From assembly GCF_009931695.1 (NCBI RefSeq), contig NZ_CP048000.1, forward strand, positions 3,489,501 to 3,553,500: a DNA stretch of 64,000 nucleotides, in the 5' to 3' direction. The notes under the pieces are model-generated. The model was not told where the DNA came from. It searched no databases and saw nothing but the letters and a program-made list of their open reading frames with translations. The stretch is from Anaerocolumna sedimenticola. GTDB taxonomy: Bacteria > Bacillota > Clostridia > Lachnospirales > Lachnospiraceae. Below are positions 4,891-37,125 of this stretch, in pieces (the first letter of the stretch is position 1; each line of letters starts with the position of its first letter). The position numbers and the translations under genes are program-made.

Positions 4891-5795
4891 ATGAAATTTG
4901 CAGTCTTTGCGGATTTACACTACGACGTTATACATGACGGAGACAGGCGATTGCATGAGTTTATTAATTCGGTGAAAGAAGAAAACATAGATTTTATAAT
5001 TGAGATGGGAGATTTATGCCATCCGACTGATGCGAATAAATATCTGATTTCGGAATTGAAAGAAGTAGGAGTTCCATGCTTCTTTACTGTAGGCAATCAT
5101 AATTCGGATGCTTATTCAATTGATACCGTGCTTAAATTCTGTGAGATGGAAAATAATTATTATTCCTTTATATTTGGAAATATCAAGTTTATTGCTCTTG
5201 ACGCAAACTATATCAAAACTGCTGATGGATATGAACCATACTGTAAACGAAACTATGAAAGAACGAATGGAGAGTATCCGTATATCCCTCCAGAAGAAAT
5301 AGAGTGGATGAAAAATGAATTGCAAGAGGAACAGTATTATTATGTTGTATTAACTCACCAAAGTCTTTCAAATGATTTTATTAATCGTGGTATATCTAAT
5401 CGTAGAGAAATTAGAAGAATTCTTGAAGAAAGAAATCGTAACGGGAAGAAAGTATTGCTTTGTATGAATGGACATGACCACGGGATGATGTGAAAATTAT
5501 CAATGAAATTCATTATTATACCTTGAATTCAATGTCATATATATGGCAGGGAATAAAGGAGACCTTTAATTATAGTGGAGAAATACATAAACAATATCCC
5601 TCTTTAAAGAACTTAATTCTATATCAGGAGTCATTACATGTCATTGTAGCTATTGATGATAATATGAATATTCAGATAAATGGGATGAAAGGACATTATC
5701 AAAATATAACGCCATCTGATATTGGTATGGGAAATACATGGAATGGCGTTTCGATTGAACCAAGAACAACGTCCTTTTACATTGGATATAAGTAA
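4891..5795 (+). pseudogene. Calcineurin-like metallophosphoesterase, split by a one-base deletion
   Basis: The reading frame starts at 4891 (ribosome site GAGGTGG). Metal-binding motifs are DLHYD (about 8-12), GDLCHP (about 42), GNHNSD (about 69), LTHQS (about 155) and GHDHG (about 195). The frame stops at 5493, right after GHDHG. Restoring one G in the GGG at 5482-5484 gives GHDHGDDVKIINEIHYY and reads on to 5795, for 301 residues. The second half is fully conserved-looking (GMKGHYQNITPSDIG), so this is probably a sequence error and the gene is probably real. Substrate unknown; the family includes phosphodiesterases of nucleotides and phospholipids. Confidence 0.8.
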
Positions 5796-17262: not shown

Positions 17263-17271
17263 ATTCCTATA

Positions 17272-17360
17272 TTTGGTAAGGGCAAACTTATCGAAAGATA
17301 AGGACGCAAAGCTTAGGGTCTAAATCTGATTACAGATACGACAGCCGGTTGCACAAAGGT
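17272..17360 (+). promoter_or_regulatory. Cyclic di-GMP-I (GEMM) riboswitch
   Basis: The aptamer has the GEMM-I core in order: AGGGCAAAC, a hairpin CTTATC-GAAA-GATAAG with a GNRA tetraloop, GGACGCAAAGC, a second hairpin (ATCTG-ATTA-CAGAT flanked by GTC/GAC) carrying the tetraloop receptor side, and AGCCGGTTGC. The base I align to G20 of Vc2 (17281, middle of GGG) is G, which favours c-di-GMP over cGAMP. A terminator hairpin follows 30 bases later, and the downstream gene is a diguanylate cyclase. On/off sense cannot be decided by eye. Confidence 0.92.
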
Positions 17361-17417: not shown

Positions 17418-17573
17418 ACATTTAACATCTGTTCTAAACAGATGTTATTATTTGCATAAGACGTTCGCTTGAGCGGGTAGCGTTAAATTTTAAGGCGTTC
17501 AACAAGTGGGCGTCATTATTTACGCGTTGATAAAACAAGCATATGCAGGATTACCTGCATTAATGTGAGTGTA

Positions 17574-17613
17574 CACGCGAACCGGAGAAACCATACAATA
17601 TTTCTTACGGTTT
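17574..17613 (+). repeat. Partial copy of the dispersed intergenic repeat
   Basis: CGCGAACCGGAGAAACC followed by a short loop and TTTCTTACGGTTT matches the distal hairpin of the repeat copies at 24292, 30622 and 36983 (minus). The proximal half is not recognisable here. Confidence 0.45.
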
Positions 17614-17696: not shown

Positions 17697-19222
17697 GTGA
17701 AAAAAGGAACGCTCTGTTATATTTTTCACAAAGCTTTGCGTAGCAGATTTGTCTCAATTTTATTCGTAAATATTATACTAGTCTTATTATTTTCTTTAAA
17801 AATAGTACAAGCACAGGAAAATCTGCCGGAAGATACATATCTGTATTCGAATACTGTTTATTTTGCAGTATTTTGCTTATGTTTAGTGATATTGTGTATA
17901 CTGGCTATTATTTTTATTTTAAGGTTAAAGCATACCAGTGAAAAAAAGGTAAAGGAAGCTTCCCTGGAGTTGAGGCATATAACAAACAGCATTCATGCAG
18001 GGTTTGTTAATTTTAATTTAGAACATAATTATGAGATAATTTATGCCAGTAACGGTTACTATGATATTGTAGGTTATAGCAAAGAAGAAATGCAACAGGA
18101 ATTAGAGAACAGTGTTACAACATTAATCTTTCCGGATGATTTGGATAAGTTTGCGGCGCTTAAAGATGACTTTGAGAATGGGGAATACATTCAAAAAGAA
18201 ATCAGGATGAAAACCAAAAGCGGTAATATCATTTGGATTTTATTAAACGGTAATTATATTGAAGATAAAAACGGAAGCCATACGGTATCCGCAGTACTGA
18301 TAGATATCACGGAATCGAAATTAATGCAGGAAAGGCTTTTATTAGAAGAGGAACGGTATCGGGTAGCAGCTGAAATATCCAACGATATTTTATTTGAATA
18401 TGAGATTGATGAAGACTTAATGACCTTTGCAGACAAATATAAAGAACTGTATGGCAGGGTTCCGGTAATACCTCATTTTTCAGATTTAAAAACAAATGCG
18501 GAAATCATGATTCATCCGGAAGATATGGGGTATTTTCCGAGTATTGCAGGGCACTGCGAAGCGGTAAAGAGATGATCGAATCGGAATTTCGTATAAAAGA
18601 TATAAAAAACGATTATGTATGGTGTCATACCAGGGGTAAAACAATTTATGATGATAATAAACGTGCCATCCGGGTGATCGGTAAGATAGTTAATATTGAT
18701 TTACACAAAAAAGAACTGCAAACTTTAGAATACAAAGCAAAAAGGGATCCCTTAACCGGTGTCTATAACAAAAGTGCAACTAAGGATCTAATTGACCATT
18801 ACATACAAAAACACAGTGATACAAAACACATCTTTATGATTGTGGATATTGATGATTTTAAAAGCATTAACGATAAATTTGGACATTTGCAGGGAGATAA
18901 GATATTATCTTTTGTAATTAATCAGGTAAAGATGATTTTTTCGTCAGGTGAAATCATAGGAAGAATCGGCGGAGATGAATTTGCCGTATTTATAGGAGAT
19001 ATCTCTAATAAAGAGACAGTTTTTATTAAGGCAGATTTGCTTCAGCGTGCATTAAGATCTGTTTATCGGGAAGAAGAGTATGAAATATCCGTTTCCGGCA
19101 GCATTGGAGTTTCCTTATATCCAAGGGACGGAAAGAATTATAACCAATTATTAAATTGTGCGGATAAAGCTTTATATGATGTGAAAGACCAAGGCAAGGA
19201 TGGATTTAAGCTGTTTACTTAA
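17697..19222 (+). pseudogene. Membrane PAS-GGDEF diguanylate cyclase, split by a one-base deletion
   Basis: Makes cyclic di-GMP from two GTP. After correction it has 508 residues: two membrane helices (about 15-38 and 51-75), PAS domains (about 95-200 and a second, 205-330), then GGDEF (about 350-508) with an intact active site GRIGGDEFAVF. The inhibitory I-site RxxD is absent (SSGE at that position). The frame breaks at GG 18563-18564; one more G gives GKEMIESEFRIKDI. Start is GTG 17697 after AAGGTGG. Its leader carries a c-di-GMP riboswitch, so the product probably feeds back on its own synthesis. The break is probably a sequence error. Confidence 0.85.
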
Positions 19223-23147: not shown

Positions 23148-24229
23148 ATGGAAAAAAAGAAAGTAGTAGTAGGCATGTCCGGTGGAGTTGATTCTTCTGT
23201 TGCTGCCTATCTACTGAAAGACGCCGGTTATGATGTAATTGGTGTTACCATGCAGATATGGCAGGATGAAGAGGTAGCGGCGCAGGAAGAGAGCGGAGGC
23301 TGCTGTGGATTAAGTGCAGTGGATGATGCGAGAAGAGTAGCCTTTGCACTGGACATACCTTATTATGTAATGAATTTTAAAAATGAATTTAAAAAAGCTG
23401 TTATTAATTATTTTGCAGAAGAATATGTAAAAGGTAACACACCCAATCCGTGTATCGCATGTAACCGTTATGTAAAGTGGGAATCTCTTTTAAAACGTTC
23501 TTTGGATATTGGCGCCGATTATATTGCCACCGGTCATTATGCTAGAGTAGTACAATTGGATAATGGAAGATATACTTTAAAAAAATCAGCAACGTCAGAA
23601 AAGGATCAGACTTATGCGCTGTATAATCTGACTCAGTATCAGCTGGCACATACCCTTATGCCGGTAGGGAGTATACAAAGGATGAGATTCGTAATATAGC
23701 TAAAAATATTAATCTAAGGGTTGCGAATAAACCGGACAGCCAGGAAATCTGTTTTATTCCGGATAATGATTATGCAAAATTCATCACGGAATATTCCGGA
23801 AAAGAACCGGAGGAGGGTAATTTTGTTACCCCGGATGGAAAGATTATCGGCAAACATAAAGGTATCATTCATTATACCGTCGGACAAAGAAAAGGTTTAA
23901 ATCTTGCAATGGGACACCCCGTATTTGTCCTGGCTATACGTCCTGAGACAAATGAAGTTGTTATCGGTAACAGTGATGAAGTATATAGTAATAAGTTGTA
24001 TGCTGATAACCTGAATTTTATGTCCATAGAAGATTTAGCGGATGAAATGGAAGTGATTGCCAAGATTCGTTACAGCCATAAAGGGTCAAACTGTACGATC
24101 CGCAAAATAGATGAGAATAAAGTAGAATGTATTTTTGAAGAACCACAAAGGGCAGTAACTCCCGGACAGGCTGTTGTATTTTACGACGGTGATTATGTCG
24201 TTGGCGGAGGAACGATTGTTCGAACGTGA
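23148..24229 (+). pseudogene. mnmA: tRNA 2-thiouridylase MnmA, split by a one-base deletion
   Basis: MnmA puts the 2-thio group on U34 of Lys, Glu and Gln tRNAs using sulfur from IscS. The PP-loop [13 protein letters not shown] is at about residues 9-21, and [12 protein letters not shown] holds the catalytic Cys. After the break come NKPDSQEICFIPD, with the persulfide Cys, and the C-terminal beta-barrel ending DYVVGGGTIVRT. The frame stops at 23699; adding one G to GGG 23667-23669 gives [14 protein letters not shown] and a protein of 360 residues, the normal MnmA length. Probable sequence error in a working gene. Ribosome site AGGAGG. Confidence 0.9.
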
Positions 24230-24242
24230 TTCGTCTATGATT

Positions 24243-24286
24243 AAAAAACGTGAGAAACTTACATTAGGTAGTTCCTCACGTTTTTT
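24243..24286 (+). terminator. Terminator of the isc-mnmA operon
   Basis: AAAAAACGTGAG pairs with CTCACGTTTTTT, 14 bases after mnmA. The dispersed repeat begins 5 bases later. Confidence 0.92.
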
Positions 24287-24291
24287 ATTAT

Positions 24292-24381
24292 CCGCGAAAG
24301 CAAAGTGAGAATTAGCATGCTTGCTTGCAATATTTCGAACGCACGAACGGAAGAAATTCGGGGAGCATGTTCTTCCGTTTC
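24292..24381 (+). repeat. Dispersed structured intergenic repeat, copy 1
   Basis: Starts CCGCGAAAGCAAAGTGAGAA, then a short palindrome (AGCATGCTTGCTTGC), then ACGGAAGAA, a 14-base loop, and TTCTTCCGT. It follows directly after the mnmA terminator. Copies with the same order lie at 30622-30716 and, on the minus strand, 36983-37080. The distal stem keeps pairing although the bases differ between copies. Confidence 0.75.
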
Positions 24382-24406
24382 TCTTAGGTAAACCTTAATG
24401 GTAAAT

Positions 24407-24467
24407 TTAAGCTAACCATATGTTATTATTTAAGCTAACTTTATGTTGTTATATATGTTAAGCTGAC
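24407..24467 (+). repeat. Short imperfect direct repeats TTAAGCTAAC
   Basis: TTAAGCTAAC at 24407 and 24430 and TTAAGCTGAC at 24458, each followed by an ATGTT-like stretch. They lie in the gap before the convergent phosphatase gene. Function unknown. Confidence 0.5.
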
Positions 24468-24483
24468 ATGTCTATTTTATACT

Positions 24484-25299
24484 TTATTTAAGTTTCTCAA
24501 ATATAGGTTTTCTGTTTTCATAAGTTACATAATAGTCAAAACCCAGAGTGCGTAATAATTCTTCCGCCTTTGGAAAGTCATATCCCAAATGTTCGGGAGC
24601 GTGGCCGTCGGAACCTATGGTAATTACTTCACCGCCTAATTCCTTATACCGCTTTAGAATATCACTATGGGGATGTGCGAAACCGAGTCCGTATTTATAA
24701 CCGGCAGTATTCACTTCGATACCTTTACCATGTTGAATAATGGTTCTTAATACCTCATCAATAATATCCCCATATTTTTTATAAGAATAAGTCTGTATCA
24801 GGGTCTTATCCGGTACATAACGGATGACATAGTCCAAATGTCCATAAACCTGAAAACCGGCAAAAGCCTTAACATTATCTATAATGCTTTGAAAGTATAT
24901 TTCAACACCTTTTTCCGGTGACTGATTCATCCAATATTCAGGGTAATAGGGATCCAGGCCGTTAACCAGATGAGAAGAACCAATTGCAAAATCAAAATCA
25001 TACTTTTCAATCAAAGCTTCGTACCTGGGAGCAAGGTAGGGTTGTAATCCAAGTTCAATTCCTTTTAAAACTTTAATTTTTGACTTATAATGCCCGGTCA
25101 TGTCGGCTAATTTTGTAAAATATTCCTCCGGATTAAAAATAAAGGGCAAGCCATTGGTATTTGGAAAGTCATAATCCATATGGTCAGTAAAGCATATTTT
25201 ACTCATTCCAAGAGATATTGCCTTTTCAATCATATCCTCCATGGGAGCAGTAGAATCACTGGAAAAAGAGGAATGTACATGGTAATCTGCTATAATCAT
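24484..25299 (-). CDS. PHP-domain phosphatase, histidinol-phosphatase family
   Basis: A 271-residue PHP (polymerase and histidinol phosphatase) enzyme with a trinuclear metal site. Motifs are DYHVHSSFSSDS (residues 5-16), CFTDHMDYDFP (about 40), KGIELGLQP (about 83), GSSHLVNGLD (about 107), VYGHLDYVIRY (about 155), and GSDGHAPEHLG (about 233). HisJ-like members release phosphate from L-histidinol phosphate. No other his gene is near, so the physiological substrate is uncertain. An upstream in-frame ATG (25323) exists, but ATG 25299 follows GGGAGGT and starts the conserved fold. Confidence 0.85.
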   Translation of the reverse strand: MIIADYHVHSSFSSDSTAPMEDMIEKAISLGMSKICFTDHMDYDFPNTNGLPFIFNPEEYFTKLADMTGHYKSKIKVLKGIELGLQPYLAPRYEALIEKYDFDFAIGSSHLVNGLDPYYPEYWMNQSPEKGVEIYFQSIIDNVKAFAGFQVYGHLDYVIRYVPDKTLIQTYSYKKYGDIIDEVLRTIIQHGKGIEVNTAGYKYGLGFAHPHSDILKRYKELGGEVITIGSDGHAPEHLGYDFPKAEELLRTLGFDYYVTYENRKPIFEKLK

Positions 25300-25374
25300 T
25301 TTAACCTCCCTTGTATAACACATCTGCGTACCGATGCGCTACTGCCGCATAATAAAATGTGAAACTAGGTTCAC

Positions 25375-25432
25375 AGGTTGAAAGAATCTGCATGCGGCAC
25401 CTTTCTATTCTTTTATTTTCTTTCAACCTATC
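25375..25432 (-). terminator. Inverted repeat downstream of rqcH, possible terminator
   Basis: AGGTTGAAAGAA (from 25375 on the plus strand) can pair with TTCTTTCAACCT-like sequence at about 25420-25431, with an A/T-rich loop. It sits 7 bases after the rqcH stop, but no clear U tract follows on the minus strand. Confidence 0.4.
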
Positions 25433-25438
25433 TCCGCT

Positions 25439-27196
25439 TTATGAAATCTGAACAATACCCGATATATCAGGAGATACTAACATGGAGTAGTTGGTATAAT
25501 ATACTACAAAACCAGGTTTTCCTCCACTTGGTTTTTTAACATTTTTCTTTTCCGTATAATCAATTTCTACCTTGTCTGCATCTCTTCCTTTAGAGTAATA
25601 AGCAGCAAGTTTTGCGGCTTCTTCAAAGGTCCTGTCCGGTATTTCATTACCCCCGGTCTGTACGATAACATGAGAACCGGCAATTTTTTTCGCATGAAAC
25701 CACCAGTCGGCTCCCACAGCGAACTTGAAAGTCAGTTCATCGTTCTGATAATTATTTTTGCCTACATATATGTGATACCCATCGGATGAAATATAATGAA
25801 ACGGTTTACTGGTTATTTTTTGTTTTTTAATTTTAGCACCCGGTTTACCTGCTGTGTATTTACGTTTCATATACCCATATTCCATGAGTTCTTCTTTTAA
25901 CTGGGCTAAATCTTCTTCCGCCAGTGCGATATCCAGAGAAGTTCGTATGGAATCCAAATGCACCAGATCCATCTTGGTTTCTTCTATAAAATTAGATAAT
26001 GCTTCGTAGGTACGTTTTAATTTGTTGTATTTTTCAAAATAATGTTTGGCGTTTTCAGCCGGAGTTATTGTTGAATCTAAAGGGATAGTAATCTCTTCAT
26101 TGGTATAATAGTTCAGGGCTGTCAATGACTTGGCACCTGGTTCTAAACTGTAACCGTAGGTATTAATCAATTCCCCGTATACTTTATATTTATCCCTTTT
26201 TTCCGTATCTTTTAATTGTTTTAACTGAAGTTCGTATTTCTTCGTATTCCTTTCTATGGCATTGGCAACTATCTTACGCAAATCCACAGATTTTTGGCGG
26301 ATACGGGTAACCGTATTTTTAGCAGCATAAAAAGATTCTAGAACTTCTGAAATAGATTCAAATTCTTTCTTATCAAGGCCATCATAACAAGATAGAGGAA
26401 AACAGGAGAATTCAATAGGAACCCCTTCCTCTAATACGATATTGGGGATATAATTATGTTCCTTTATATCAGAAATTAAACGTTCCAGATTCTTGTATAA
26501 ATGCAGCCCCTCCGATTCCGAAAGAGAACTGGTTGAAGCCTCGGAATCAATAGAAGACCGGTAACAGACTTCATTAGCCATTAACGGACTGAATCCGGTA
26601 AGTGAAGTATAAATTGCTTTTCCAATAGGTAACGGTTTAACCAAAACAGCTTCCATAAATTCTTCATAATTTATGGTTAAAGGATCTTTTTTCTCTCCGA
26701 CTAAGGGAAGAAAATATTCCCTGCCCGGAAGTACTTCGCGTACGGAGCTAACTAAATGGGAAATATGTTTTATACTGTCTATAATCATATCTTTATCATC
26801 CAGAAAGATAATATTACTGTGTTTTCCCATTACCTCCAGAACGAGATACTTGATACATAAATCACCCATTTCATTAAGATGCTCAATCTTAAACCTTAAA
26901 ATTCGCTCAAGCCCCGGCTGCGTAATGTCTAAAATTCTTGCACTGTTTAAATGCTTTCTAAGCAGCATACAGAATCCGGGAGCAGTCATTGGATTTTGTT
27001 TGTTTTCTTCCGTTAAATATACTAACGGTAAACTTGCGTTAGCAGAAAGAAATAGTTTGTAGTTATCCCGGTTATTTTTTATAGTCAGAACTAACTCATC
27101 TTTTTCAGGCTGGGAAATCTTACTGATTCTGCCGTCTATGAGTTTTGTTTTTAATTCATAAACCAGATTAGATATGACAAGTCCGTCTAAAGCCAT
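25439..27196 (-). CDS. rqcH: Ribosome-associated quality control protein RqcH (NFACT family)
   Basis: A 585-residue NFACT protein that binds stalled 50S-peptidyl-tRNA complexes and directs addition of C-terminal Ala tails for degradation. The N-terminal NFACT-N domain begins MALDGLVISNLVYELKTKL. A long coiled coil occupies about residues 285-430. The C-terminal NFACT-R (DUF814) domain includes DWWFHAKKIAGSHVIVQTGG (about 498-517). The order and length match RqcH/FbpA-like proteins, once called fibronectin-binding proteins. Ribosome site AAAGGAGA. It is transcribed away from yicC. Confidence 0.93.
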   Translation of the reverse strand: MALDGLVISNLVYELKTKLIDGRISKISQPEKDELVLTIKNNRDNYKLFLSANASLPLVYLTEENKQNPMTAPGFCMLLRKHLNSARILDITQPGLERILRFKIEHLNEMGDLCIKYLVLEVMGKHSNIIFLDDKDMIIDSIKHISHLVSSVREVLPGREYFLPLVGEKKDPLTINYEEFMEAVLVKPLPIGKAIYTSLTGFSPLMANEVCYRSSIDSEASTSSLSESEGLHLYKNLERLISDIKEHNYIPNIVLEEGVPIEFSCFPLSCYDGLDKKEFESISEVLESFYAAKNTVTRIRQKSVDLRKIVANAIERNTKKYELQLKQLKDTEKRDKYKVYGELINTYGYSLEPGAKSLTALNYYTNEEITIPLDSTITPAENAKHYFEKYNKLKRTYEALSNFIEETKMDLVHLDSIRTSLDIALAEEDLAQLKEELMEYGYMKRKYTAGKPGAKIKKQKITSKPFHYISSDGYHIYVGKNNYQNDELTFKFAVGADWWFHAKKIAGSHVIVQTGGNEIPDRTFEEAAKLAAYYSKGRDADKVEIDYTEKKNVKKPSGGKPGFVVYYTNYSMLVSPDISGIVQIS

Positions 27197-27402
27197 GTTA
27201 TTTCTCCTTTATATTAAAGTGGATACAACTTATTATATAAAAATTGTTCCGTGTTTATTTATGCGAAAGCATAGAAAGGCTGTTACTGATTTCTTCTCAT
27301 ATTATAAGGGTACTATCAAGAATCAGTATATTAATACCAAATAGTATAACATTAGACAGTAGGAGAAGCAATAATTTTTCTGACATATTTTATGAACCAG
27401 TC

Positions 27403-27431
27403 TTGACTTGTCGTAGTATATCTACTATAAT
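27403..27431 (+). promoter_or_regulatory. Promoter of the yicC-remA-rpoZ operon
   Basis: TTGACT (27403-27408), 17-bp spacer, TATAAT (27426-27431). It lies in the 324-bp gap between rqcH and yicC, in which nothing else was recognised. Confidence 0.85.
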
Positions 27432-27520
27432 AAATTCAAATGCCTGTAAAGATTCCGAGGTGAGTCGAATATATATCATTTCTGGCATTATAAAACTTTA
27501 TATTGAAAGAACGTGTGAAT

Positions 27521-28399
27521 ATGTTAAAAAGTATGACTGGCTTCGGTAGATGTGAAGAAGTAGGAGAAGAACGAAAGATAATTGTTGAAATGAAGGCAGT
27601 AAACCACCGGTATTGTGACATTTCCATTAAGATGCCCAAGAAACTTAGCTTTTTTGAAGCAGGTATACGAAATGTTTTAAAACAATATATTGGACGTGGT
27701 AAGGTGGATGTATTTATCACGTATGAAGATTTTACTGAAAATAATGTTTGTGTAAAATATAATGAAGACATTGCAAAAGAATATTTAAAATATCTGACTC
27801 ATATGAGTGAAACTTTTCAAATCGAAAATGATATCAGGGTATCAAATTTATCCAGATTTCCGGATATATTTACCTTGGAAGAGCAGACTATAGATGAACA
27901 GGAACTTTGGAAAATAGTTGAGAAAGCGGTTAGAACTGCTGCAGAACAATTGGTAGAGGCGAGAATTGCAGAAGGTTTGAATCTAAAAAAGGATTTATAT
28001 GGGAAACTGGATGGCATGGTGGACTACATTAATTTTATTGAAGAAAGATCACCCCAGATTGTTACTGAGTATAGACAAAAGCTTACTGCTAAAGTATATG
28101 AATTATTAGGCGATACCAAATTAGATGAAAGTATCCTTGCAACTGAAGTTACTGTATTTGCGGATAAAATCTGTGTAGATGAAGAAACCGTAAGGTTAAG
28201 AAGTCACATAATGAATATGAAAAATACGTTGGAAGCCGGAGAGGAAATCGGACGAAAACTGGATTTCATCGCCCAGGAGATGAATCGCGAGGCCAATACC
28301 ATATTGTCAAAAGCAAATGACATTCATATAACCAACAAAGCGATTGATTTAAAAACGGAAATAGAGAAAATCAGAGAACAGATTCAGAACATAGAATAA
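27521..28399 (+). CDS. YicC-family endoribonuclease
   Basis: A 292-residue YicC/YloC family protein, members of which are endoribonucleases. It begins [12 protein letters not shown], the invariant family N-terminus, with [11 protein letters not shown] near residue 30 and a C-terminal DUF1732 block [18 protein letters not shown] (about 244-261), then [24 protein letters not shown] at 27503 is in frame, but MLKSMTGFG is the family start; the ribosome site is weak (AAAGAAC). It heads an operon with remA and rpoZ, as usual in Firmicutes, but gmk is missing from the set. Confidence 0.93.
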
Positions 28400-28422
28400 C
28401 ACATCGAAATGAGGTACAGAAA

Positions 28423-28695
28423 TTGAATCGATTAATTAATATAGGATTTGGTAATGTAGTCAATTCGAATAAGATAGTTGGAATCATTAGCCCTGAAGCT
28501 GCACCGATAAAAAGAATGGTACAAAGTGCCAAGGATGCCGGAACAGCGATAGATGCAACCTGCGGAAGGAAAACAAAAGCCGTTATTGTAACAGACAGCG
28601 GACATTTGGTATTATCCGCTTTATTACCTGAAACCATTGCAAATCGGGTAAATATAAAAGAAGAAACTGATACCGTGGTATCTTACAATGAATAA
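28423..28695 (+). CDS. remA: RemA/DUF370 DNA-binding regulator
   Basis: A 90-residue protein of the RemA (YlzA) family. It reads [19 protein letters not shown], then APIKRM and [13 protein letters not shown], all diagnostic. In Bacillus subtilis RemA oligomerises on DNA to activate biofilm-matrix and osmoprotection genes. Start is TTG after GAGGT; no in-frame ATG precedes the conserved region. It sits between yicC and rpoZ. The gmk gene that normally follows is absent. Confidence 0.93.
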
Positions 28696-28812
28696 AGATA
28701 AAAATATATCCGATATATCAATTATAACTTACAAAAAAAGAAATATATAAAATAAAAATATATAAATAAAAATATATATTTTGAAAGCTTATGCATACGG
28801 AAGGAGATTAAT

Positions 28813-29058
28813 ATGTTACATCCATCATATACAGACCTAATGAAAGTAGTAAACAGCGAGGTAGAACCAGGAGAACAGCCTGTAGTAAATAGCAGATATT
28901 CCATCGTTTTAGCAACTGCTAAAAGAGCCAGACAACTAATTAACGGAGTTGACCCTATGGTTCGTGCAACTTCCGCAAAACCTTTATCCATAGCGGTAGA
29001 AGAATTATATCAGTCAAAAGTAAAAATTGTGAATGACGATGAAACAAAAGAAGCATAA
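28813..29058 (+). CDS. rpoZ: RNA polymerase omega subunit
   Basis: An 81-residue omega subunit, which binds the beta-prime C-terminus and stabilises RNA polymerase. MLHPSYTDLMKVV is the clostridial start; NSRYSIVLATAKRARQLI is the conserved helix pair and AKPLSIAVEELYQSKVKI the tail. Ribosome site GGAAGGAG. The 117 bp between remA and rpoZ is AT-rich and non-coding, too short for gmk. Confidence 0.95.
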   Translation: MLHPSYTDLMKVVNSEVEPGEQPVVNSRYSIVLATAKRARQLINGVDPMVRATSAKPLSIAVEELYQSKVKIVNDDETKEA

Positions 29059-29095
29059 TATTAGCTCATGCGTATGATTTAGATGAGCTCTGGTG

Positions 29096-29187
29096 AGCAC
29101 TTTCGTGTGATTCCTTATTTAATATTGAGATTCTATAGCAGAATTATAGAATCATCATAAAATAATAAGGTATCCTGCGAGAGTGCT
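29096..29187 (+). other. 92-nt long hairpin between rpoZ and the signal peptidases
   Basis: A 24-base arm at 29096-29119 pairs with 29164-29187 with only two true mismatches and three G-U pairs. An inner hairpin, GATTCTATA (29129-29137) with TATAGAATC (29145-29153), caps it. A smaller hairpin (about 29063-29090, AGCTCAT with ATGAGCT) precedes it. No U tract follows, so it is not a standard terminator. Confidence 0.6.
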
Positions 29188-29242
29188 TTATCATATATTA
29201 TGCTACGGCTTAATAAGCCTAAGCCTAAGATGGGAGATCTAT

Positions 29243-29869
29243 ATGGAAGACAATAAGGATAGGTCCTGGTTAAGGGTATCGGAAGAGTTAAATACAACAG
29301 ATGATCAGGAATTGGAACAGAAGGTAAAACAGGCAAATTACGGAAAAGAAATTAGTGAAATGATTATTTACTTTGTTGTGGTCATTGTATCTGTGCTATT
29401 AATACATCAATTTGTGGGGCAGCAGATAGAAGTTAGCGGCAGTTCCATGGAGAGTACGCTACATAACGAAGATCATTTAATATTGGAAAAAGTATCTTAT
29501 GAAATAAATAAACCAAAGCGCTTTGATATTGTTGTCTTCAGACCTTATGAGGAGGATAAAGACACTTACTATATAAAAAGGGTAATTGGACTTCCAGGAG
29601 AAACGATTCAGATAATCGGAAGTGATATCTATATTAATGATCAACTCCTTAATGAAGATTATGGAAATAATCCCATAGCAGACGGCGGGATAGCGAAAGA
29701 ACCGATTGTTTTAGGAAAAGATGAATATTTTCTATTGGGAGATAATAGAAATAACAGCAAGGACAGCCGAGATTCCAGTATTGGTGCTGTAGAAAGAAAA
29801 GCTATCATCGGACGCGCATGGGTAAGAATCTGGCCATTTGAGAAGTTTGGTGTATTGGAGCATCAATAA
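29243..29869 (+). CDS. lepB: Signal peptidase I (first of two)
   Basis: A 208-residue type I signal peptidase that cuts signal peptides from exported proteins. There is one N-terminal membrane helix (MIIYFVVVIVSVLLIHQF, about 37-54). The catalytic Ser is in SGSSMESTL (about 66) and the Lys in YYIKRVIGLPGE (about 110); GDNRNNSKDSRD is box E. A TTG/ATG-like extension from 29183 is possible, but ATG 29243 has GGGAG 6 bases upstream. It forms a tandem with the next gene. Confidence 0.92.
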   Translation: MEDNKDRSWLRVSEELNTTDDQELEQKVKQANYGKEISEMIIYFVVVIVSVLLIHQFVGQQIEVSGSSMESTLHNEDHLILEKVSYEINKPKRFDIVVFRPYEEDKDTYYIKRVIGLPGETIQIIGSDIYINDQLLNEDYGNNPIADGGIAKEPIVLGKDEYFLLGDNRNNSKDSRDSSIGAVERKAIIGRAWVRIWPFEKFGVLEHQ

Positions 29870-29899
29870 ATTACTGAAAGCTGATTGGAGATTATAATA

Positions 29900-30547
29900 A
29901 TGAGCGGAGAGAAAAAAACAGAAGAATTCGAAGAAGAAAACGGTAAAGAGAATATAGAAGAATACGAGCCATATTATTCAGTTGATAATACAAAGGTAAA
30001 GAAAGAAGAGAAAAAGCGGAAACATTTATCTATCCTGATGGATATTATTATATATGCAATTATTATATATACTTGTGTTTACTTAATACCGACTTATGTA
30101 ATACAAAGAACTATAGTGGATGGTCCATCAATGGAAAATACCCTGCATAACGGGGAGCATCTTATGGTAGAAAAAATAAGTTATCATTTAGATAAATTAA
30201 AACGCTTTGATATTATAGTATTCTATCCTCATGGAAGAAAGAATGAAGAGTATTATGTAAAGCGGATTATCGGTTTACCGGGAGAGACGATACAGATAAA
30301 AGGCAGCGATATCTATATCAATGGTGAAAGACTGAAAGAAAATTACGGAAAAGAACCGATTACCTTCGCCGGGACAGCAGAAGAACCGTTGACTTTAGGA
30401 GATGGTGAATATTTTGTTATGGGAGATAATCGGGAAGTAAGCTTAGATAGCCGCTATGAGGAAGTCGGAGTTGTTCCGAGAGAAAATATCGGTGGACGTG
30501 CAATTCTTCGAATATGGCCGCTTAAAAAATTTGGTTTATTAAATTAA
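29900..30547 (+). CDS. Signal peptidase I (second of two)
   Basis: A 215-residue paralogue of the preceding gene. An acidic/basic N-terminal cytosolic region of about 45 residues (EEFEEENGKENIEEYE) precedes one membrane helix (LMDIIIYAIIIYTCVYLI). Catalytic Ser is in DGPSMENTL and Lys in YYVKRIIGLPGE; box E is GDNREVSLDSR. It lies 30 bases after the first copy, and ATG 29900 follows TTGGAG. Two peptidases in tandem may differ in substrate preference. A terminator follows. Confidence 0.92.
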   Translation: MSGEKKTEEFEEENGKENIEEYEPYYSVDNTKVKKEEKKRKHLSILMDIIIYAIIIYTCVYLIPTYVIQRTIVDGPSMENTLHNGEHLMVEKISYHLDKLKRFDIIVFYPHGRKNEEYYVKRIIGLPGETIQIKGSDIYINGERLKENYGKEPITFAGTAEEPLTLGDGEYFVMGDNREVSLDSRYEEVGVVPRENIGGRAILRIWPLKKFGLLN

Positions 30548-30567
30548 ATACTAAATATAAAAATCAG

Positions 30568-30619
30568 AAAAAAGCAGTTACAAATAAGTGAAAAACTATT
30601 TGCAACTGCTTTTTTTTAT
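30568..30619 (+). terminator. Terminator of the signal-peptidase operon
   Basis: GCAGTT-CAAATA pairs with TATTTG-AACTGC (one bulged base per arm) and is followed by T8. The dispersed repeat begins three bases later. Confidence 0.9.
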
Positions 30620-30621
30620 TT

Positions 30622-30716
30622 CCGCGAAAGCAAAGTGAAAATTAGCAAGCTTGCTTGCAATAATTCCAATGCGCCCGTAAACCGGAAGAAACTCGCAAAC
30701 GTGTTCTTCCGGTTTT
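30622..30716 (+). repeat. Dispersed structured intergenic repeat, copy 2
   Basis: Starts CCGCGAAAGCAAAGTGAAAA, has AGCAAGCTTGCTTGC, then ACCGGAAGAA, a 13-base loop, and TTCTTCCGGT. It is the best-preserved copy and again begins immediately after a terminator T tract. Confidence 0.8.
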
Positions 30717-30818
30717 AGTTACGCAAAGGGCATAAGTATATTACTAATATAAACAGGAATGGGAACGGAAGATAAGAGCTAATGGAATAACCCGTATAAA
30801 TGATTTTAATTAATTTAT

Positions 30819-30866
30819 ATAGTAAATAATAAAATAATTGACATTTATATAAAACAGATTTACTAT
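30819..30866 (+). promoter_or_regulatory. Promoter and inverted repeat of the arabinanase gene
   Basis: TTGACA (30838-30843), 17-bp spacer, TACTAT (30861-30866). ATAGTAAAT (30819-30827) and its exact complement ATTTACTAT (30858-30866) flank the -35 and cover the -10. A further TTTACTA lies near 30901. These are candidate operator half-sites, perhaps for the ArsR-type regulator encoded convergently downstream. Confidence 0.65.
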
Positions 30867-30973
30867 AAAGAGGTAATAAGTATAGTTAATAATAAATTAG
30901 TTTACTACAATGTAAATAATAACTACAACATTAATGGGCAATTACCTAATAACATTAATAATAGGGGGTTAAT

Positions 30974-32517
30974 ATGAAAAAAAATATGTTTATAGGTTTT
31001 ATTACTATGTCTATGGTACTGTTAACAGGTTGTTCAGGGAATATTCATGAAACAGTGGCAAATACAGGACGAAATATAAAAAATAATCCGGACAAATTGG
31101 TTTCATCAGTTATTACTGTTCCGAAGGATATGAAACTGAAAGCGGATAATCCGGTTACTTATACTTTTAAAGATGTGTCGGTACATGATCCCTCCATTAT
31201 AGAAACAGGAGGAGAATATTACATATTTGGTTCTCATTTGGCAGGAGCAAAGTCAAAAGATCTTATGAATTGGGATTTAATCGGATCCGGTGTTACAAAA
31301 AATAATCCCATTATACCGGATGCCAGGAATGAAATGAAAGAAGCTTTCCAATGGGCTAAAACAAATACTTTTTGGGCGCCGGATGTAATACAGCTTAAGG
31401 ATGGCCGTTATTATATGTATTACTGTACCTGTGAGGGAAGTTCGCCCTTAGCCAGTCTGGGAGTAGCCGTTTCGGATAAGGTGGAAGGACCGTATAAAGA
31501 TCTTGGAATTATACTAAAATCGGGAATGGGTCCGGGGATACCCAGTGAGGATGGTAATACCTATGACGCTACCATTCAGCCTAATGTAGTGGATCCGTGC
31601 TTATATTACGACACCAGCGGCAGGTTATGGATGTCTTATGGTTCCTATTCGGGTGGTATTTTTATATTGGAAATGAATCCGGAAACGGGGTTTCCGTTAG
31701 AAAAAGGGTATGGTAAGAAAATACTGGGAGGCAATCATGTCAGGATAGAAGGCTCTTTTGTTATATATAGTCCTGAAACAAAATATTATTATATGTTCTT
31801 ATCCTTTGGTGGGTTAGCAAAAGACGGAGGTTATAATATAAGGGTGATCCGGTCTAAAACACCGGACGGACCTTTTTACGATTCCAATGGAAATGATATG
31901 ATTCATTGCAAAGGTAAGGACGGAACTTTTTTTAACGATGAATCCATTTACCAATATGGTACTAAGCTAATGGGAAGCTATCGATTCGATTGGGTGAAAG
32001 GAGAAGAAGGGGAGAAACGGTATGGATATGTATCCCCCGGTCATAATTCTGTATTATACAATGATAAGACCGGACAATATTTTTAATTTTCCATACACGT
32101 TTTGAAACAAAGGGTGAATTTCATGAAGTACGGGTACACCAGATGTATTTAAATGAAGATGGCTGGCCGGTGGTATCACCTTACCGTTATACCGGTGAAA
32201 AAATTGAAAGATATTCAGATAAACAAATAACAGGAATTTATAAATACATTAATCATAGCAATACCATATCTCCGGAAGTGGTCGTGTCAAAATTAATAGA
32301 GTTGAACGAAGATTATACCATAACCGGAGCGGTAATCGGTTCCTGGAAATTGGATAAAGACGGTACCGGCATTATTATAACGATAGGAGAAAATTCATAC
32401 AAGGGTGTTGTGAATAAAGAGTGGGATGAATCCGGTAAAAAGAATGTAATGACCTTTACGGCACTTTCTGATAAAGGTATAGCCATATGGGGAAGCGGCC
32501 TTGCGCCAATGGAATAA
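30974..32517 (+). pseudogene. GH43 endo-arabinanase lipoprotein, split by a one-base deletion
   Basis: An exported lipoprotein (signal peptide with LLTGC lipobox, Cys-20) that should cleave alpha-1,5-arabinan outside the cell. It is a five-bladed GH43 propeller with catalytic Asp in SVHDPSIIE (about 72), Asp in VVDPCLYYD (about 210) and Glu in RIEGSFVIYS (about 258). A C-terminal beta domain follows (about 400-514, ending AIWGSGLAPME). The frame stops after TGQYF at 32086; one more T in T5 at 32080-32084 gives FLIFHTRFETKGEFHEVRV and 514 residues in total. Probable sequence error. Confidence 0.85.
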
Positions 32518-32624
32518 TTAAGAAAGAGGGAAGCTGGTTTTTCAGGAGGTCCTAGTACTCACTTGCTCTGTCTCTTTAGTAAAGATTTCATAATCATGTC
32601 ATGTGCAGGCCATGGTAGTATAGC

Positions 32625-32695
32625 TCATAGGGAGTAACTTCCTATGAACTAAAAATGGGTATATAATTCAAAGAAGCTTCGAACTATATACCCAT
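32625..32695. terminator. Two hairpins between convergent GH43 and ArsR genes
   Basis: TCATAGGGA/TTCCTATGA (about 32625-32647), then ATGGGTATATA (32655-32665) pairing exactly with TATATACCCAT (32685-32695). Placed between two converging 3' ends, they likely end transcription from both sides, though T tracts are weak. Confidence 0.6.
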
Positions 32696-32703
32696 ATTGT
32701 ATT

Positions 32704-33653
32704 TTATAAAGTATCCGTATTGGATTGGTTAGAATTATCCTCAATAGGACTATAATGGATACGAACTTTAATATCCTGATTATAATTGCCGAAATTACGT
32801 CCGAATATAGTTAATCCGCCTACATGTTCCGCATCATCCGGAACTGCAAATTTAAACTTAATAGTACTTCTATAATCCAGATTCAAATCCTTTAAGGAGA
32901 CGCCTGAAATTTGAAGGCCGTCAATAAATGTTCCGGTATTATTAATTACGATTAATTTAAGTAATCCATATTGATTCCAGTTAGGGTACCACCAGTCAGG
33001 GGTAAAAATCCCTTTTACATCACCAAAATCTCCGGGGCTGGTCCACATTCCAAGGCATTTTTCATTTAAATAAAAGTAAATATCGGAGGCCATACATCAT
33101 TGACTCCCGGTGCTTCCGAACTAAGCTCAGCGGATATAGTTATTTGATCTATTTTTTGCTGTACCGGTAAAAAGTTAGGAATGATATATTCCACATATCC
33201 TTTTGTAAACCATAAAATGTCACTATCTATTCGGCTGGGATGAGCAAAATATCTGGCATCGTCTACTTCACCGATTAACTGATTTGCAGTTGCCAGTCCA
33301 CAAGTAGGAAATATCTTGTAATCGGAATAATGACCGATTTTAAGTTCGGTTTCATAGATATTTTTCTTTTGCTCTTCACTATCAAATTCAACAAGTATTT
33401 TGTCCAGGTGTACCATACATTTTTTTTGATTACCGTGGCCTGCGGATTCACTGACAATTGTAACGATTCCACAATCCTCTAATTTTTTTATATGACTGGT
33501 CAGAGCGCCGTTTGTAATGTTTAAACTGCTGGCTAGTTCGTTCATATTCATTCCTTTATTTTTTAATAATAACTTAATGATAGATATCCTGATCTCCGAA
33601 CCAAGAGCTTTAAATACATCCAGGCCTTCATCCAATGTTTTAATATGCAGCAT
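32704..33653 (-). pseudogene. ArsR-family regulator with large C-terminal domain, split by a one-base deletion
   Basis: A winged-helix regulator of 316 residues after correction. Residues 1-85 carry ArsR HTH (ALGSEIRISIIKLLLKN, MNELASSLNITNGALTSHIK). The rest is a beta-rich domain ending in DIYFYLNEKCLGMWTSPGDF and IFGRNFGNYNQDIKVRI, as in regulators beside sugar-hydrolase genes. The first frame stops after NDVWPP; one more base at plus-strand GG 33088-33089 gives VWPSDIYFYLN and continues to 32704. It faces the arabinanase gene and probably controls it. No ligand is known from the sequence. Confidence 0.82.
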
Positions 33654-33953
33654 GTATGATACCTCCCTTTTCTCTTTGTATATTTTTTCATATTAGCTTA
33701 TTATAAAGCAAAATCTAAAATAAATCAAGAGTATGCAATGTTAGAAATAAGATTTTATATATAGATTAATTTAAAATACATATAAGATTTTTTTATAAAA
33801 TCAGTTACTTTTGTATCAGTTTTCCTGTTTTATAAATAGAAATTTAATAAAATAAGGAATATAATCTGTACAAATAAAAATAATTTAGCATTAAAATATT
33901 AATCTAAAAATGCTAAATTATTTTATGATTATTTTAAGTTAATAATTTTTATC
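33654..33953 (-). terminator. Intergenic region with terminator of the osmolyte transporter operon
   Basis: On the minus strand, a 16-bp stem (plus-strand AAAATAATTTAGCATT at 33877-33892 with AATGCTAAATTATTTT at 33909-33924) follows the permease stop by about 30 bases. The remaining AT-rich part up to 33953 and toward the ArsR gene should hold the ArsR promoter, but I could not pick one confidently. Confidence 0.7.
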
Positions 33954-35528
33954 TTATCCAGTAATCAACCCTTTTTCCAGTAAAAATTCTTTTGCAACAA
34001 CCGCAGGTTCCATCTGGAGTTCATCAACCTTATAATTTAATTCAATCATTACTTCATCGGTCAGTATATCACCAAGTTCTTCTATGACAGGTACCAATTC
34101 AGGATAGGTTTTAATGATTTCAGCTCTTGCTAAAGGTATTGCATAATAGGGTGGAAAGAAGTGTTTATCATCTTCTAAGGTAACCAGATCAAATTTCTTT
34201 AATAAACCGTCTGTAGAAAAGGCATCAACAACATCTGTTTCCTGATTCATTAAAGCAACATATCTTGGTGAACCATCCAGACCGGTTGTATCTTTAAAAT
34301 TAAAATTATAAAATTTTGTCAACCCGGGTACACCATCAATCCGGTTCAAAAATTCCAATGTAGTACCGGCACGCAGATCGGATGCAACTTTTGCAAGATC
34401 ACTAATGGTTTTAAGGTTATATTTATCAGCGGTTTCTTTTGTTACGGCCAGAACATAAGTATTATTAAAAGCCATTTGTTTTAAAACATCAATGTCAAAT
34501 TTGTTATTAAAATCTGTCTTAACCGTGTTATATACTTTCTCCATATCAGAAATAGGAGGATAATTTAATGTATCACCATAAGCGGTTCCGCTGTAATCAA
34601 AATAAAGATCAATATCACCGGATTTCAGTGCTGAAAAGCATACCTGGGTTCCGCCAAGATTTATTTTACGTTCTACTGTGATATCTGTTTTTTCTTCTAT
34701 TAAATCAGAAAACATATTAGCTAAGATATGCTGTTCGGTAAAATCTTTACTTCCTATTCGAATTACTTTTTCGGACCGGTTTATTCCGGTTACTGCTGTA
34801 ATAACCAATATTACTGCTAAACATACCGCAGTTGTTAATAAAATAAATTTATGAATTCTATTTTGATTTGCTTTTTTTCTATTTAGTAATCCATCCTTTT
34901 GCAGGCTGATGGGTGTCACTGATTTCTCAATTAATCCAATCAGAAAATCTACAAGCAATGCAAGGATACATGCAGGGATTGCACCTGCTAATATTTGATT
35001 GTTATTTACCGTTCTGATACCGGAGAAGACTAGAAAGCCAAGACCGCCTGCACCGATAAAAGCTGCCATTGTCATAAGTCCCACGGCCGTAACAGCAGAT
35101 ATCCTTACACCTGCCATTATAACAGGCAGAGCTAAAGGAATCTGTACTTTATATAAAATCTGTAGTTTAGTCAGTCCAATTCCGCGTGCGGCTTCTAAGG
35201 TCTGGGTATTTATATTCTGGATTCCTGTATAGGTATTTTTTATGATCGGCAGTAATGAGTATAATATTACCATTACCACTGCCGGTAAAGTACCTATACC
35301 TAAAAACGGTATTGCAAATCCAAGCAAAGCCATACTTGGGATTGCCTGAACAAGATTGGCAATTCCTAATATAGGTTTATTCAATTTTTTTACATAACTT
35401 ATCAGGATACCTAACGGAACTCCGATTAAAATAGCAAAACCAACCGATATGGCTGTAAGCCGGATATGTTCCATAGTTAATGTTAGTATTTGATTACTGT
35501 TTTGAATGATATAATTAATAAAATTCAT
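33954..35528 (-). CDS. Osmolyte (betaine/carnitine/choline-type) ABC transporter, permease fused to substrate-binding domain
   Basis: A 524-residue fusion of the OpuC/ProWX type. Residues 1-210 are a BPD-type permease with about five or six helices and the EAA-like loop EAARGIGLTKLQILYKVQIPL. A linker helix (about 227-250) follows, then an extracellular OpuAC-like binding domain (about 258-524; VIRIGSKDFTEQHILANM, GGTQVCFSALKSGDIDLY). It imports compatible solutes under osmotic stress. A TTG extension exists, but ATG 35528 follows GAGGGGG and lies 4 bases after the ATPase stop. Same operon as the ATPase. Confidence 0.92.
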   Translation of the reverse strand: MNFINYIIQNSNQILTLTMEHIRLTAISVGFAILIGVPLGILISYVKKLNKPILGIANLVQAIPSMALLGFAIPFLGIGTLPAVVMVILYSLLPIIKNTYTGIQNINTQTLEAARGIGLTKLQILYKVQIPLALPVIMAGVRISAVTAVGLMTMAAFIGAGGLGFLVFSGIRTVNNNQILAGAIPACILALLVDFLIGLIEKSVTPISLQKDGLLNRKKANQNRIHKFILLTTAVCLAVILVITAVTGINRSEKVIRIGSKDFTEQHILANMFSDLIEEKTDITVERKINLGGTQVCFSALKSGDIDLYFDYSGTAYGDTLNYPPISDMEKVYNTVKTDFNNKFDIDVLKQMAFNNTYVLAVTKETADKYNLKTISDLAKVASDLRAGTTLEFLNRIDGVPGLTKFYNFNFKDTTGLDGSPRYVALMNQETDVVDAFSTDGLLKKFDLVTLEDDKHFFPPYYAIPLARAEIIKTYPELVPVIEELGDILTDEVMIELNYKVDELQMEPAVVAKEFLLEKGLITG

Positions 35529-35532
35529 AATA

Positions 35533-36660
35533 CTATACCCCCTCAACTTCTAAATATTGCTGACTTAATGTAGTTACCAGGCTGCTTTTGGTTATTAAGC
35601 CGAGCAGAGTATTATCTTCATCTATTACAGGAATATTGGAAACTTGATTTTCTTCAACAAGTTTTAATATGTCTATAATATTATCCTGGGGAGATACGCT
35701 AAGAAAATCAGTCGACATGATAGAATTTACTTCCCTGGCCCGGTCAGATTGCTGCTGTATTTGTTGTGCGCTTATAGTGCCTATTAAATGATTTGTAGTA
35801 TTCTCAATTATCATAAGGCTGTCAACTTTATTGGAGCGCATTTTATCCATACAACGAAGTAATGTCATATTTTGCATACAGGTAACAGGGGAAGTAATCA
35901 TGATATCTTCCGCTTTAATAAATTCGGGAGAAGTCCATATGCGGTTTTTTCCTACGAATTTAGAAACAAAATCATTGCATGGATTTTTTAAAATATTTTC
36001 CGGAGTATCATATTGAAGAATTTCCCCGTTTCTCATAATGCAGATCATGTCGGCAATTTTAATTGCCTCATCCATATCATGAGTTACAAATACGATTGTT
36101 TTTCTTAGATGTGACTGTAAATTGATTAACTCATCCTGCAGGCCAATTCGGGTTATGGGGTCCAATGCAGAAAAAGGCTCATCCATTAAGATGATTTCCG
36201 GATCTGTTGCAAATGCTCTGGCAACACCGACTCTTTGCTGCTGGCCGCCGCTAAGTTCGACAGGATATCGGTGTAAATATTCTTCCGGTTTTAGACCGAC
36301 CATTTCCATCAGTTCATAGGTTCTTTTTTCAATCACGGATTTATCCCTTTTTTCTGCTTTTGGGATTATTTCAATATTATCTTTGACGGTCATATGGGGA
36401 AACAGTCCGGTCTGTTGGATTACATAACCCATTTGTCGGCGTAGTTCTATGATATCTCTTGATTCGATATTTTCTCCATTGATATATATATTACCGGAAG
36501 ATGGTCTGATCAGCCGGTTTATCATTTTTAGCGTGGTAGTTTTACCACAGCCGCTTTCTCCGATAAAAGCAACCAGATTCCCTTTGTTTATATCTAAGGT
36601 AATGTTTCTTAATACTTTTTTATCCTTAAAGTTTTTTGTTACATTTTCAAATTTTATCAT
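35533..36660 (-). CDS. opuCA: Osmolyte ABC transporter ATPase with CBS pair (OpuCA/ProV type)
   Basis: A 375-residue ATPase that powers the adjacent permease. Walker A is GESGCGKTTTLKMINRL (about 35), signature LSGGQQQRVGVARA (about 136), Walker B IILMDEPFSALD (about 156), then the switch His in VFVTHDMDE. Residues 250-370 are two CBS domains (DIMITSPVTCMQN; SIMSTDFLSVSPQ, then IPVIDEDNTLLGLIT). In OpuC systems the CBS pair is a regulatory site, and c-di-AMP binds it in some species. Ribosome site AGGGAGGT. First gene of the operon, behind repeated operators. Confidence 0.93.
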   Translation of the reverse strand: MIKFENVTKNFKDKKVLRNITLDINKGNLVAFIGESGCGKTTTLKMINRLIRPSSGNIYINGENIESRDIIELRRQMGYVIQQTGLFPHMTVKDNIEIIPKAEKRDKSVIEKRTYELMEMVGLKPEEYLHRYPVELSGGQQQRVGVARAFATDPEIILMDEPFSALDPITRIGLQDELINLQSHLRKTIVFVTHDMDEAIKIADMICIMRNGEILQYDTPENILKNPCNDFVSKFVGKNRIWTSPEFIKAEDIMITSPVTCMQNMTLLRCMDKMRSNKVDSLMIIENTTNHLIGTISAQQIQQQSDRAREVNSIMSTDFLSVSPQDNIIDILKLVEENQVSNIPVIDEDNTLLGLITKSSLVTTLSQQYLEVEGV

Positions 36661-36705
36661 TATTTTACCTCCCTTTTTACAAAGTAATAACTTGTGTAAA
36701 GTAAT

Positions 36706-36792
36706 AAGTTGTTACTAGTGACAATCCAATTATAAATAAAAGTTGTTACTAGTGACAATCCAATTATAAATAAAAGTTGTTACTTTGTCAAA
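36706..36792 (-). promoter_or_regulatory. Osmolyte operon promoter inside 34-bp operator repeats
   Basis: Minus strand: TTGACA (36791-36786), exactly 17 bp, TATAAT (36768-36763), a full-consensus promoter. The near-palindrome TTGTTACTAGTGACAA occurs at 36709-36724 and 36743-36758 (plus-strand reading) within an exact 34-bp duplication (36708-36741, 36742-36775). A third half-site, GTTGTTACT, at 36776 falls in the -35/-10 spacer. The predicted start (about 36756) is inside the second palindrome. A repressor bound here should shut the operon tightly; the neighbouring GntR-RCK_C protein is the obvious candidate. Confidence 0.85.
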
Positions 36793-36849
36793 TCTAAAGG
36801 TATTACTTATATAGCAGCTGTTTTTAATATGTTCAAGTGTATTTCATAC

Positions 36850-36982
36850 TGGTTGGGCTATGATTCACTACATTAGCCATTCCCGTTCGTTTTTATAAAA
36901 AACCGGAAGAAAAACTTCGCTAAGTTTCTCCGCTGCTTGGACGTTCACAATTATTCAGCTTACTCTGAGGATCATTCACCTC
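36850..36982 (-). other. Intergenic hairpin related to the dispersed repeat
   Basis: On the minus strand, GCAGCGGAGAAACTT is followed by TTTTTCTTCCGGTTTTTT (about 36895-36940), resembling a second, diverged copy of the repeat's distal hairpin, here ending in a T tract that could terminate transcription. It lies directly downstream of repeat copy 3. Confidence 0.4.
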
Positions 36983-37080
36983 GCGGAAACCGGAGGAAAC
37001 ACGCTTTGCGAGTTTCTCCGGTTCGCGTGCGCGTTCGAATTATTGCAAGCAAGCTTGCTAATTCTCACTTTGCTTTCGCG
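36983..37080 (-). repeat. Dispersed structured intergenic repeat, copy 3
   Basis: Minus-strand copy: CGCGAAAGCAAAGTGAGAA, AGCAAGCTTGCTTGC, then ACCGGAGAAAC, a loop, and GTTTCCTCCGGTTT. It begins seven bases after the terminator of the GntR-RCK_C gene, in the same orientation relative to that gene as copies 1 and 2 have to theirs. Confidence 0.78.
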
Positions 37081-37087
37081 TAAATAA

Positions 37088-37125
37088 AAAACCTTATACA
37101 AAACTACTTGATTTGTATAAGGTTT
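37088..37125 (-). terminator. Terminator of the BusR-like gene
   Basis: AAACCTTATAC pairs with GTATAAGGTTT; on the minus strand a TTTTTTATTT tract follows. The repeat element starts right after. Confidence 0.88.

Follow-up and report, generated by a model that had tools for sequence, protein, structure and literature searches.

The chromosome of Anaerocolumna sedimenticola (Lachnospiraceae) carries a repeat of about 94 bp, composed of two hairpins, that has spread to about 100 places behind transcription terminators. Four complete copies, recovered by a covariance model (R2, described below), lie in the 64,000-nucleotide stretch analysed here, which we call the window (contig NZ_CP048000.1, positions 3,489,501 to 3,553,500). 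That the element moves and that it targets terminators is close to certain. It represents a family of miniature mobile elements with terminators as targets that is well supported, and of which no description was found in the literature searched, subscription journals being mostly outside that coverage. The result is a sizeable family of tiny elements with a clean, testable target rule and clean empty sites.

Movement is evident from a second, short repeat of the same genome (loci L183-L204), which starts with GGGCTGTCGCACTAAATGCGGCGCCCTTTTT, opens with a terminator-like hairpin and serves as a host for the element. Among the 17 copies of this host repeat that were compared, some of which differ at their 3′ ends, nine contain the element and eight lack it at the same position (...GCGGCGCCCTTTTTCATT|AGAGATG...). 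Filled and empty copies differ by the segment TCCGCG...CCGGTT, with no loss and with no duplication beyond an ambiguous TT, as the TT at the right end of the element equals the TT that precedes it. The comparison is based on 26 host-repeat matches, from which two were excluded (L187 has a deletion and L193 lacks its left part); two others are second arms of counted copies, and in five, which were left unclassified, the junction motif was not found. Both subtypes of the host repeat show filled and empty states, which suggests more than one event.

The insertion sites follow a consistent rule. Only 4 of 131 copies lie within an open reading frame (ORF) of at least 100 amino acids, compared with 923 of 1500 control points. 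Of 103 copies with the end of an ORF no more than 300 nt upstream, 89 share the strand of that ORF; controls give 203 of 359. A hairpin ends 3-14 nt upstream of 94 of the 122 single-site copies, a test for which nine tandem second units and matches without the first six positions were set aside. The corresponding frequencies are 32 of 600 for random points, 11 of 109 for downstream flanks and 49 of 600 for other TTTNATT sites. The junction reads TTTNATT|TCCGCG; of the 122 copies, 118 have T at −1, 115 have T at −2 and 111 have A at −3.

Copies in other genomes behave similarly, with an upstream hairpin in 47 of 65 (random points give 46 of 600 and downstream flanks 10 of 65) and with A at −3 in 43 of the 65. 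These 65 are drawn from 66 listed copies, one being dropped for a repeated or short flank; the list leaves out nine nested copies of genome G717, the short match of G541, the second units of arrays in L342 and L321, and copies in records labelled as phage. A preliminary description of the window had proposed, among other possibilities, a mobile repeat that targets terminators, with a bias of position and orientation. The precise empty sites, the hairpins detected upstream and the scarcity of copies within ORFs all support that proposal.

In its host the element extends from TCCGCG to CCGGTT, and on the sense strand hairpin A is directly followed by hairpin B. In hairpin A, a long, interrupted hairpin, small conserved internal loops with GA facing GA lie between CGCG, GC and GT/AC pairs, after which comes a variable stem that usually has a CTTG loop. 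Hairpin B has AAC at its start and GTT at its end, and the three pairs at its foot are occupied by the commonest pair in 33, 29 and 29 of 34 sequences. Terminal inverted repeats were not found when the two ends, TCCGCGAAAGC and AACCGGAAGAA, were compared reading inwards.

Two covariance models were built, R1 from 27 sequences and R2 from 34, most of which come from other genera. As the preliminary description had noted for a few copies, pairing is kept while stem bases change. In the 27-sequence alignment, two-sided changes affect 18 of 34 pairs versus 6.6 in shuffles. The 34 sequences, nearly all from other genera, give 32 of 34 pairs versus 20.1, and 208 cells versus 61, in an alignment that was fitted to the structure and is biased towards it. 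Sliding the pairing partner in this alignment cuts pairing from 89% to 31-46%. On the sense strand G·T mispairs outnumber A·C mispairs (49 versus 19 across genera, 121 versus 76 in the host), which suggests that this is the strand that folds, either as RNA or as single-stranded DNA.

The host genome is represented by one contig of 5.50 Mb, plasmids being outside the data. A 30-nt pattern taken from the head of the element matches it 143 times with up to three mismatches (65 forward, 78 reverse) and a 29-nt tail 120 times; reversed controls gave no match in either case, excluding chance as the source of these further copies. In the retrieved stretches, as distinct from the whole genome, and with copies having less than 70 nt of flank dropped, 131 copies have a 5′ end, of which 115 are complete and 16 lack all or part of the 3′ sequence. 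The latter include L228, which has an internal deletion, and three tandem second units. About eight further copies lack the 5′ part, while other 5′-less matches were recognised by manual sorting as mirror matches of the palindromic hairpin. The asymmetry in truncation (16 versus about eight) was considered as a clue to mechanism and is not decisive.

Near-complete copies (n = 107) have a median identity to the consensus of 94.7%. Because the commonest sequence is exactly common to nine of these 107, and because seven of the ten places that share the top score with R1 are outside the host repeat, movement looks recent. Tandem arrays also occur, including five units near 3.161 Mb (the last incomplete) and three near 38 kb, with units joined as GTT|TCCGCG. 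With the chromosome divided into two halves at 1.25 and 4.05 Mb, boundaries that were set post hoc, 84 of 100 listed heads point one way, an orientation that probably follows the leading-strand bias of genes. Two host loci, L210 and L169, hold hairpin B only, as a palindrome extended by the flanks; in L210 the extended palindrome resembles a terminator hairpin and has a T tract behind it, and the ORF upstream of L169 appears ordinary by eye, no family search having been made.

The four window copies and the hairpins associated with them are as follows.

17460..17520, plus strand: hairpin before copy 4, a 12-bp stem GACGTTCGCTTG/CAAGTGGGCGTC with an ATTATT tail (fold z −2.73)
17521..17612, plus strand: copy 4, complete and strongly diverged (R2 match 17519-17612, 55.1 bits, E 1.1e-9; fold)
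24246..24290, plus strand: terminator hairpin and T-rich tail before copy 1, AACGTGAGAAACT...AGTTCCTCACGTTTTTTATTA (direct reading; absent from the terminator-scan list)
24291..24380, plus strand: copy 1 (R2 match 24289-24379, 51.6 bits; sequence reading), after a terminator downstream of an ORF that by eye resembles the end of mnmA
30568..30620, plus strand: terminator hairpin and T tract before copy 2 (20-pair stem 30568-30615)
30621..30714, plus strand: copy 2 (R2 match 30619-30714, 69.6 bits), after a terminator downstream of an ORF that by eye resembles a signal peptidase
36899..36987 (about), minus strand: second, degenerate unit that forms a tandem with copy 3, joined as CCGGTT|TCCGCGAGGTGA... 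and with a TTCTTCCGGTT hairpin at its end (direct reading)
36988..37082, minus strand: copy 3 (R2 match 36988-37084, 102.8 bits)
37083..37125, minus strand: terminator hairpin and T tract before copy 3, AACCTTATACAAA...TTTGTATAAGGTTTTTTATT (direct reading)

Covariance-model spans in the window take in two flanking T's. Three of these copies had been recognised from the letters alone, and both their existence and their common motifs are confirmed. A fourth, described as part of a copy at 17574-17613, is real but is not partial, since it constitutes the 3′ end of the complete, diverged copy 4. This copy scores 71.3 bits with R1, among whose 27 rows it is included, and R2 was built without it; its other hairpin is rebuilt in different letters, as judged by folding. 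A hairpin in the sense orientation precedes each of the four copies, as had been reported for the full ones, three of them being seen by direct reading and that of copy 4 as the 12-bp stem. The last ends at 17514, and the terminator scan lists a shorter stem with the same end base. The stem before copy 2 is palindromic; the scan lists its minus strand, and the plus-strand T tract lies next to it. No R2 match on the minus strand (E up to 1) was found for the degenerate second unit.

Several features lie near these copies. Upstream of copy 4 there is a c-di-GMP-I riboswitch at 17271-17356 (80.5 bits), and a PAS/GGDEF-like ORF at 17697-19222 is split near 18572. The region resembling mnmA is likewise split into two ORFs (23148-23699 and 23909-24229). 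These resemblances were judged by eye, and the interruptions may be sequencing frameshifts or real breaks.

Within the genus, three of 15 genomes contain the 20-nt head of the element (143 matches in A. sedimenticola, two in G006 and one in G007), and DNA similarity alone finds it in 3 of 61 genomes, all Anaerocolumna. Among Lachnospiraceae, the head pattern matches 20 of 397 genomes, many with single matches in coding sequence, although in G371, which has nine, those inspected are real relatives. Full-length R1 matches (E up to 1e-3, up to 13 candidates scored per genome) are present in 34 of 299 Lachnospiraceae genomes and in 33 of 298 genera, the host's own included. With R2 (E up to 1e-4, up to 10 scored per genome), six of 391 genomes sampled from the class Clostridia are positive. 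Four of these are outside Lachnospiraceae, namely G651 (at least 10 copies), G717 (nine), G725 (one) and G541 (one doubtful match of 58 nt only).

Two of these genomes offer unusual arrangements. Copies in G717 sit inside a larger repeat, itself folded and about 220 bp long (L322, L325 and L334, about 1300-1800), where similar terminator-like hairpins flank the element on both sides, like a duplicated target. G651 (L314) has three c-di-GMP-I riboswitches in tandem, and an element separates the second from the third.

With reasonable though limited confidence, we favour a non-autonomous mobile element whose structure imitates a terminator and whose movement depends on a hairpin-recognising enzyme supplied in trans. 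Insertion is immediately 3′ of a terminator hairpin and its T tract, with ATT as the last letters before the element. Hairpin B together with its TT looks like a terminator hairpin with its T tail and TT; through this resemblance the right end is a target as well, and it is there that tandem arrays grow. The enzyme would read a hairpin followed by TT on a single DNA strand, treating it as right end and as target alike, cut after TT and move the element as a folded single strand, in a mode of action like that of IS200/IS605 or REP elements minus their enzyme. Single-strand action is the most economical choice because the element has a fixed orientation, bears no inverted repeats at its ends and targets a structure; a hairpin mimic that acts in this way is, by a narrow balance, the probable mechanism.

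Since the insertions land just beyond terminators they presumably do no harm, and this would permit more than 100 copies. Because no Y1 transposase and no reverse transcriptase is found in the chromosome contig although movement looks recent, we infer an enzyme of another kind. A more tentative idea, which we regard as possible and nothing firmer, is that the element typifies a new class in Clostridia that homes by structure, is moved by an enzyme that is neither Y1 nor a reverse transcriptase, and may include some orphan “RNAs”. If the proposal of a trans-acting enzyme is true, there is an enzyme still to be discovered that is guided by hairpins and places DNA behind genes without harm.

A number of observations weigh against this account. 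The TT at the empty sites is equally readable as a 2-bp target duplication, and the left joint is one base different in the filled copies L185 and L186. Recombination between host-repeat copies could partly explain the empty sites; the tree of the 17 copies has no supported branch, needs 6 changes versus 5.9 in shuffles, and does not prove repeated insertion or excision. No hairpin was detected for 28 of 122 host copies and 18 of 65 copies elsewhere. Several of these have a long-loop terminator when inspected by eye and others have none, and four of the 18 are G139 copies that share one flank. The roughly eight copies without a 5′ part and the 16 with incomplete 3′ sequence are predicted by no simple cut-and-paste model, and the G·T excess may partly stem from the model and from shared ancestry.

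The search for an enzyme also counts on this side. The host chromosome contig has no match to Y1_Tnp (PF01797; E up to 1e-3) and none to RVT_1 (PF00078), two profiles that were positive in 5 and 3 of 14 control genomes, respectively. ORFs between or beside clustered copies appear ordinary by eye, no family search having been made. The idea of an autonomous relative, in which a gene would separate hairpin A from hairpin B, was rejected on this inspection.

Other explanations draw on some of the same facts. IS200/IS605 elements have no inverted repeats, generate no duplication, insert 3′ of a short motif and carry hairpins in their ends. A derivative of such an element (PATE) or a REP-like element, moved by a Y1 (HUH) transposase since lost or carried on an unassembled plasmid, would account for the precise insertion seen at the empty sites (the TT being ambiguous), the target-like right end, the folded sense strand and the high copy number. 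We nevertheless judge this distinctly unlikely, as the 5.5-Mb contig is without Y1 though copies look recent, no GTAG tag is present, the hairpins are at the very ends, and the target is apparently recognised by structure. Nor is there an association with Y1 in a chosen set of 49 genomes, where the domain occurs in 13 of 26 that bear the element and in 14 of 23 taken as element-free (nine with no R1 match, and 14 with no head-pattern match and not among the R1 positives). Y1 is absent from three genomes that have the element: G302, a single contig with at least 10 copies, G269 and G007.

REP/REPIN sequences, which go with RAYT transposases, are like the element short, folded, extragenic and abundant. 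However, the element has TCCGCG and GGTT at its ends, is made of two unlike hairpins and targets terminators, and with no Y1/RAYT gene in the contig the earlier suggestion of a REP-like repeat does not hold in the strict sense. CGTC-tagged REPs are also described as having no dedicated transposase (PMC3733652). A MITE-like nature in the strict sense, suggested at the same time, is contradicted by the absence of terminal inverted repeats, which separates the element from MITEs of the DDE type; of a target-site duplication nothing is seen beyond the TT, which is ambiguous.

A recombinase of the tyrosine or serine type, encoded by a resident mobile element and using hairpin B as a folded single-strand site, is unlikely although worth considering. 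The integron integrase uses attC in this manner, hairpin B has the form AAC...GTT, and arrays grow at the GTT end. However, the attC box consensus, RYYYAAC/GTTRRRY, does not agree with the CGCGAAC of the element or with the GTTTCCG of its tandem units. The chances are very small that the element is instead a retroelement fragment, an RNA reverse-spliced or reverse-transcribed behind terminators by a reverse transcriptase of the group IIC intron type. The feature in common is insertion directly behind terminator hairpins (94 of 122 element copies versus 32 of 600 points). Group IIC introns recognise a terminator-type DNA hairpin plus a short downstream motif (PMC3898094, whose reference list includes Robart 2007). 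The element, in contrast, is 94 bp long with no ORF and no ribozyme match, and the chromosome contig has no RVT_1. No Rfam match to a group II intron, catalytic domain V included, was found in the window at the gathering threshold or in some relatives scanned at relaxed thresholds, and the TCCGCG and GTT ends are unlike those of group II introns.

It is similarly improbable, if very slightly less so, that a functional RNA or DNA element (a 3′-end RNA, a back-up terminator or a protein site) was selected by the host and spread by ordinary duplication. Covariation that keeps the structure and the existence of a distantly similar Rfam RNA family would fit such a function, whereas the precise empty sites, the tandem arrays and the identical copies at unlinked places would not. 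Furthermore, the 20-nt head has no match in 12 of the 14 other Anaerocolumna genomes, one of these 12 (G002) having one R1 match. The suggestion that the repeat stabilises mRNA 3′ ends is unlikely by inference because the element sits beyond the terminator. An unreported RNA, also suggested, is possible but is unnecessary for explaining the distribution.

Comparison with catalogued RNAs and repeats yielded one distant resemblance. At gathering thresholds no Rfam family, RF01699 included, matches the window copies, and no related family was found for host locus L024 and five other loci (E up to 5) or for host copy L123 (E up to 2). The nearest family is the orphan Clostridiales-1 RNA (RF01699), which is listed by Weinberg 2010 (PMC2864571). 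Over the element, the relative L144 scores 51.7 bits against a cut-off of 48, with a similar first hairpin and a GCUUGC loop, although the alignment lacks much of the second hairpin and of the third; L325 scores 26.8 bits. The one true Clostridiales-1 member inspected (L341, 70.7 bits) has no terminator before it. The element and Clostridiales-1 may share a hairpin design. More generally, the element warns that covarying “orphan RNAs” from comparative genomics can be mobile DNA. The pneumococcal BOX, RUP and SPRITE repeats are small, non-coding and mobile, and SPRITE is terminator-like (PMC10969869). The descriptions consulted do not mention insertion behind terminators, the comparison being by description only.

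Searches for the element gave no match in plasmid records, and exact scans gave none in viral contigs. Records labelled as phage did give matches, 10 to the copy of a relative and two to a window copy. Carriage by phage was rejected as an interpretation, as ORFs in four such records (L269-L272) resemble bacterial chromosome by eye. One of these, L271 (MT836568), carries the label of a phage and looks chromosomal, with an apparent T-box leader upstream of a tyrosyl-tRNA synthetase-like ORF. At about 5001-5044 of this record, a truncated element lies directly behind the apparent terminator of the T-box leader.

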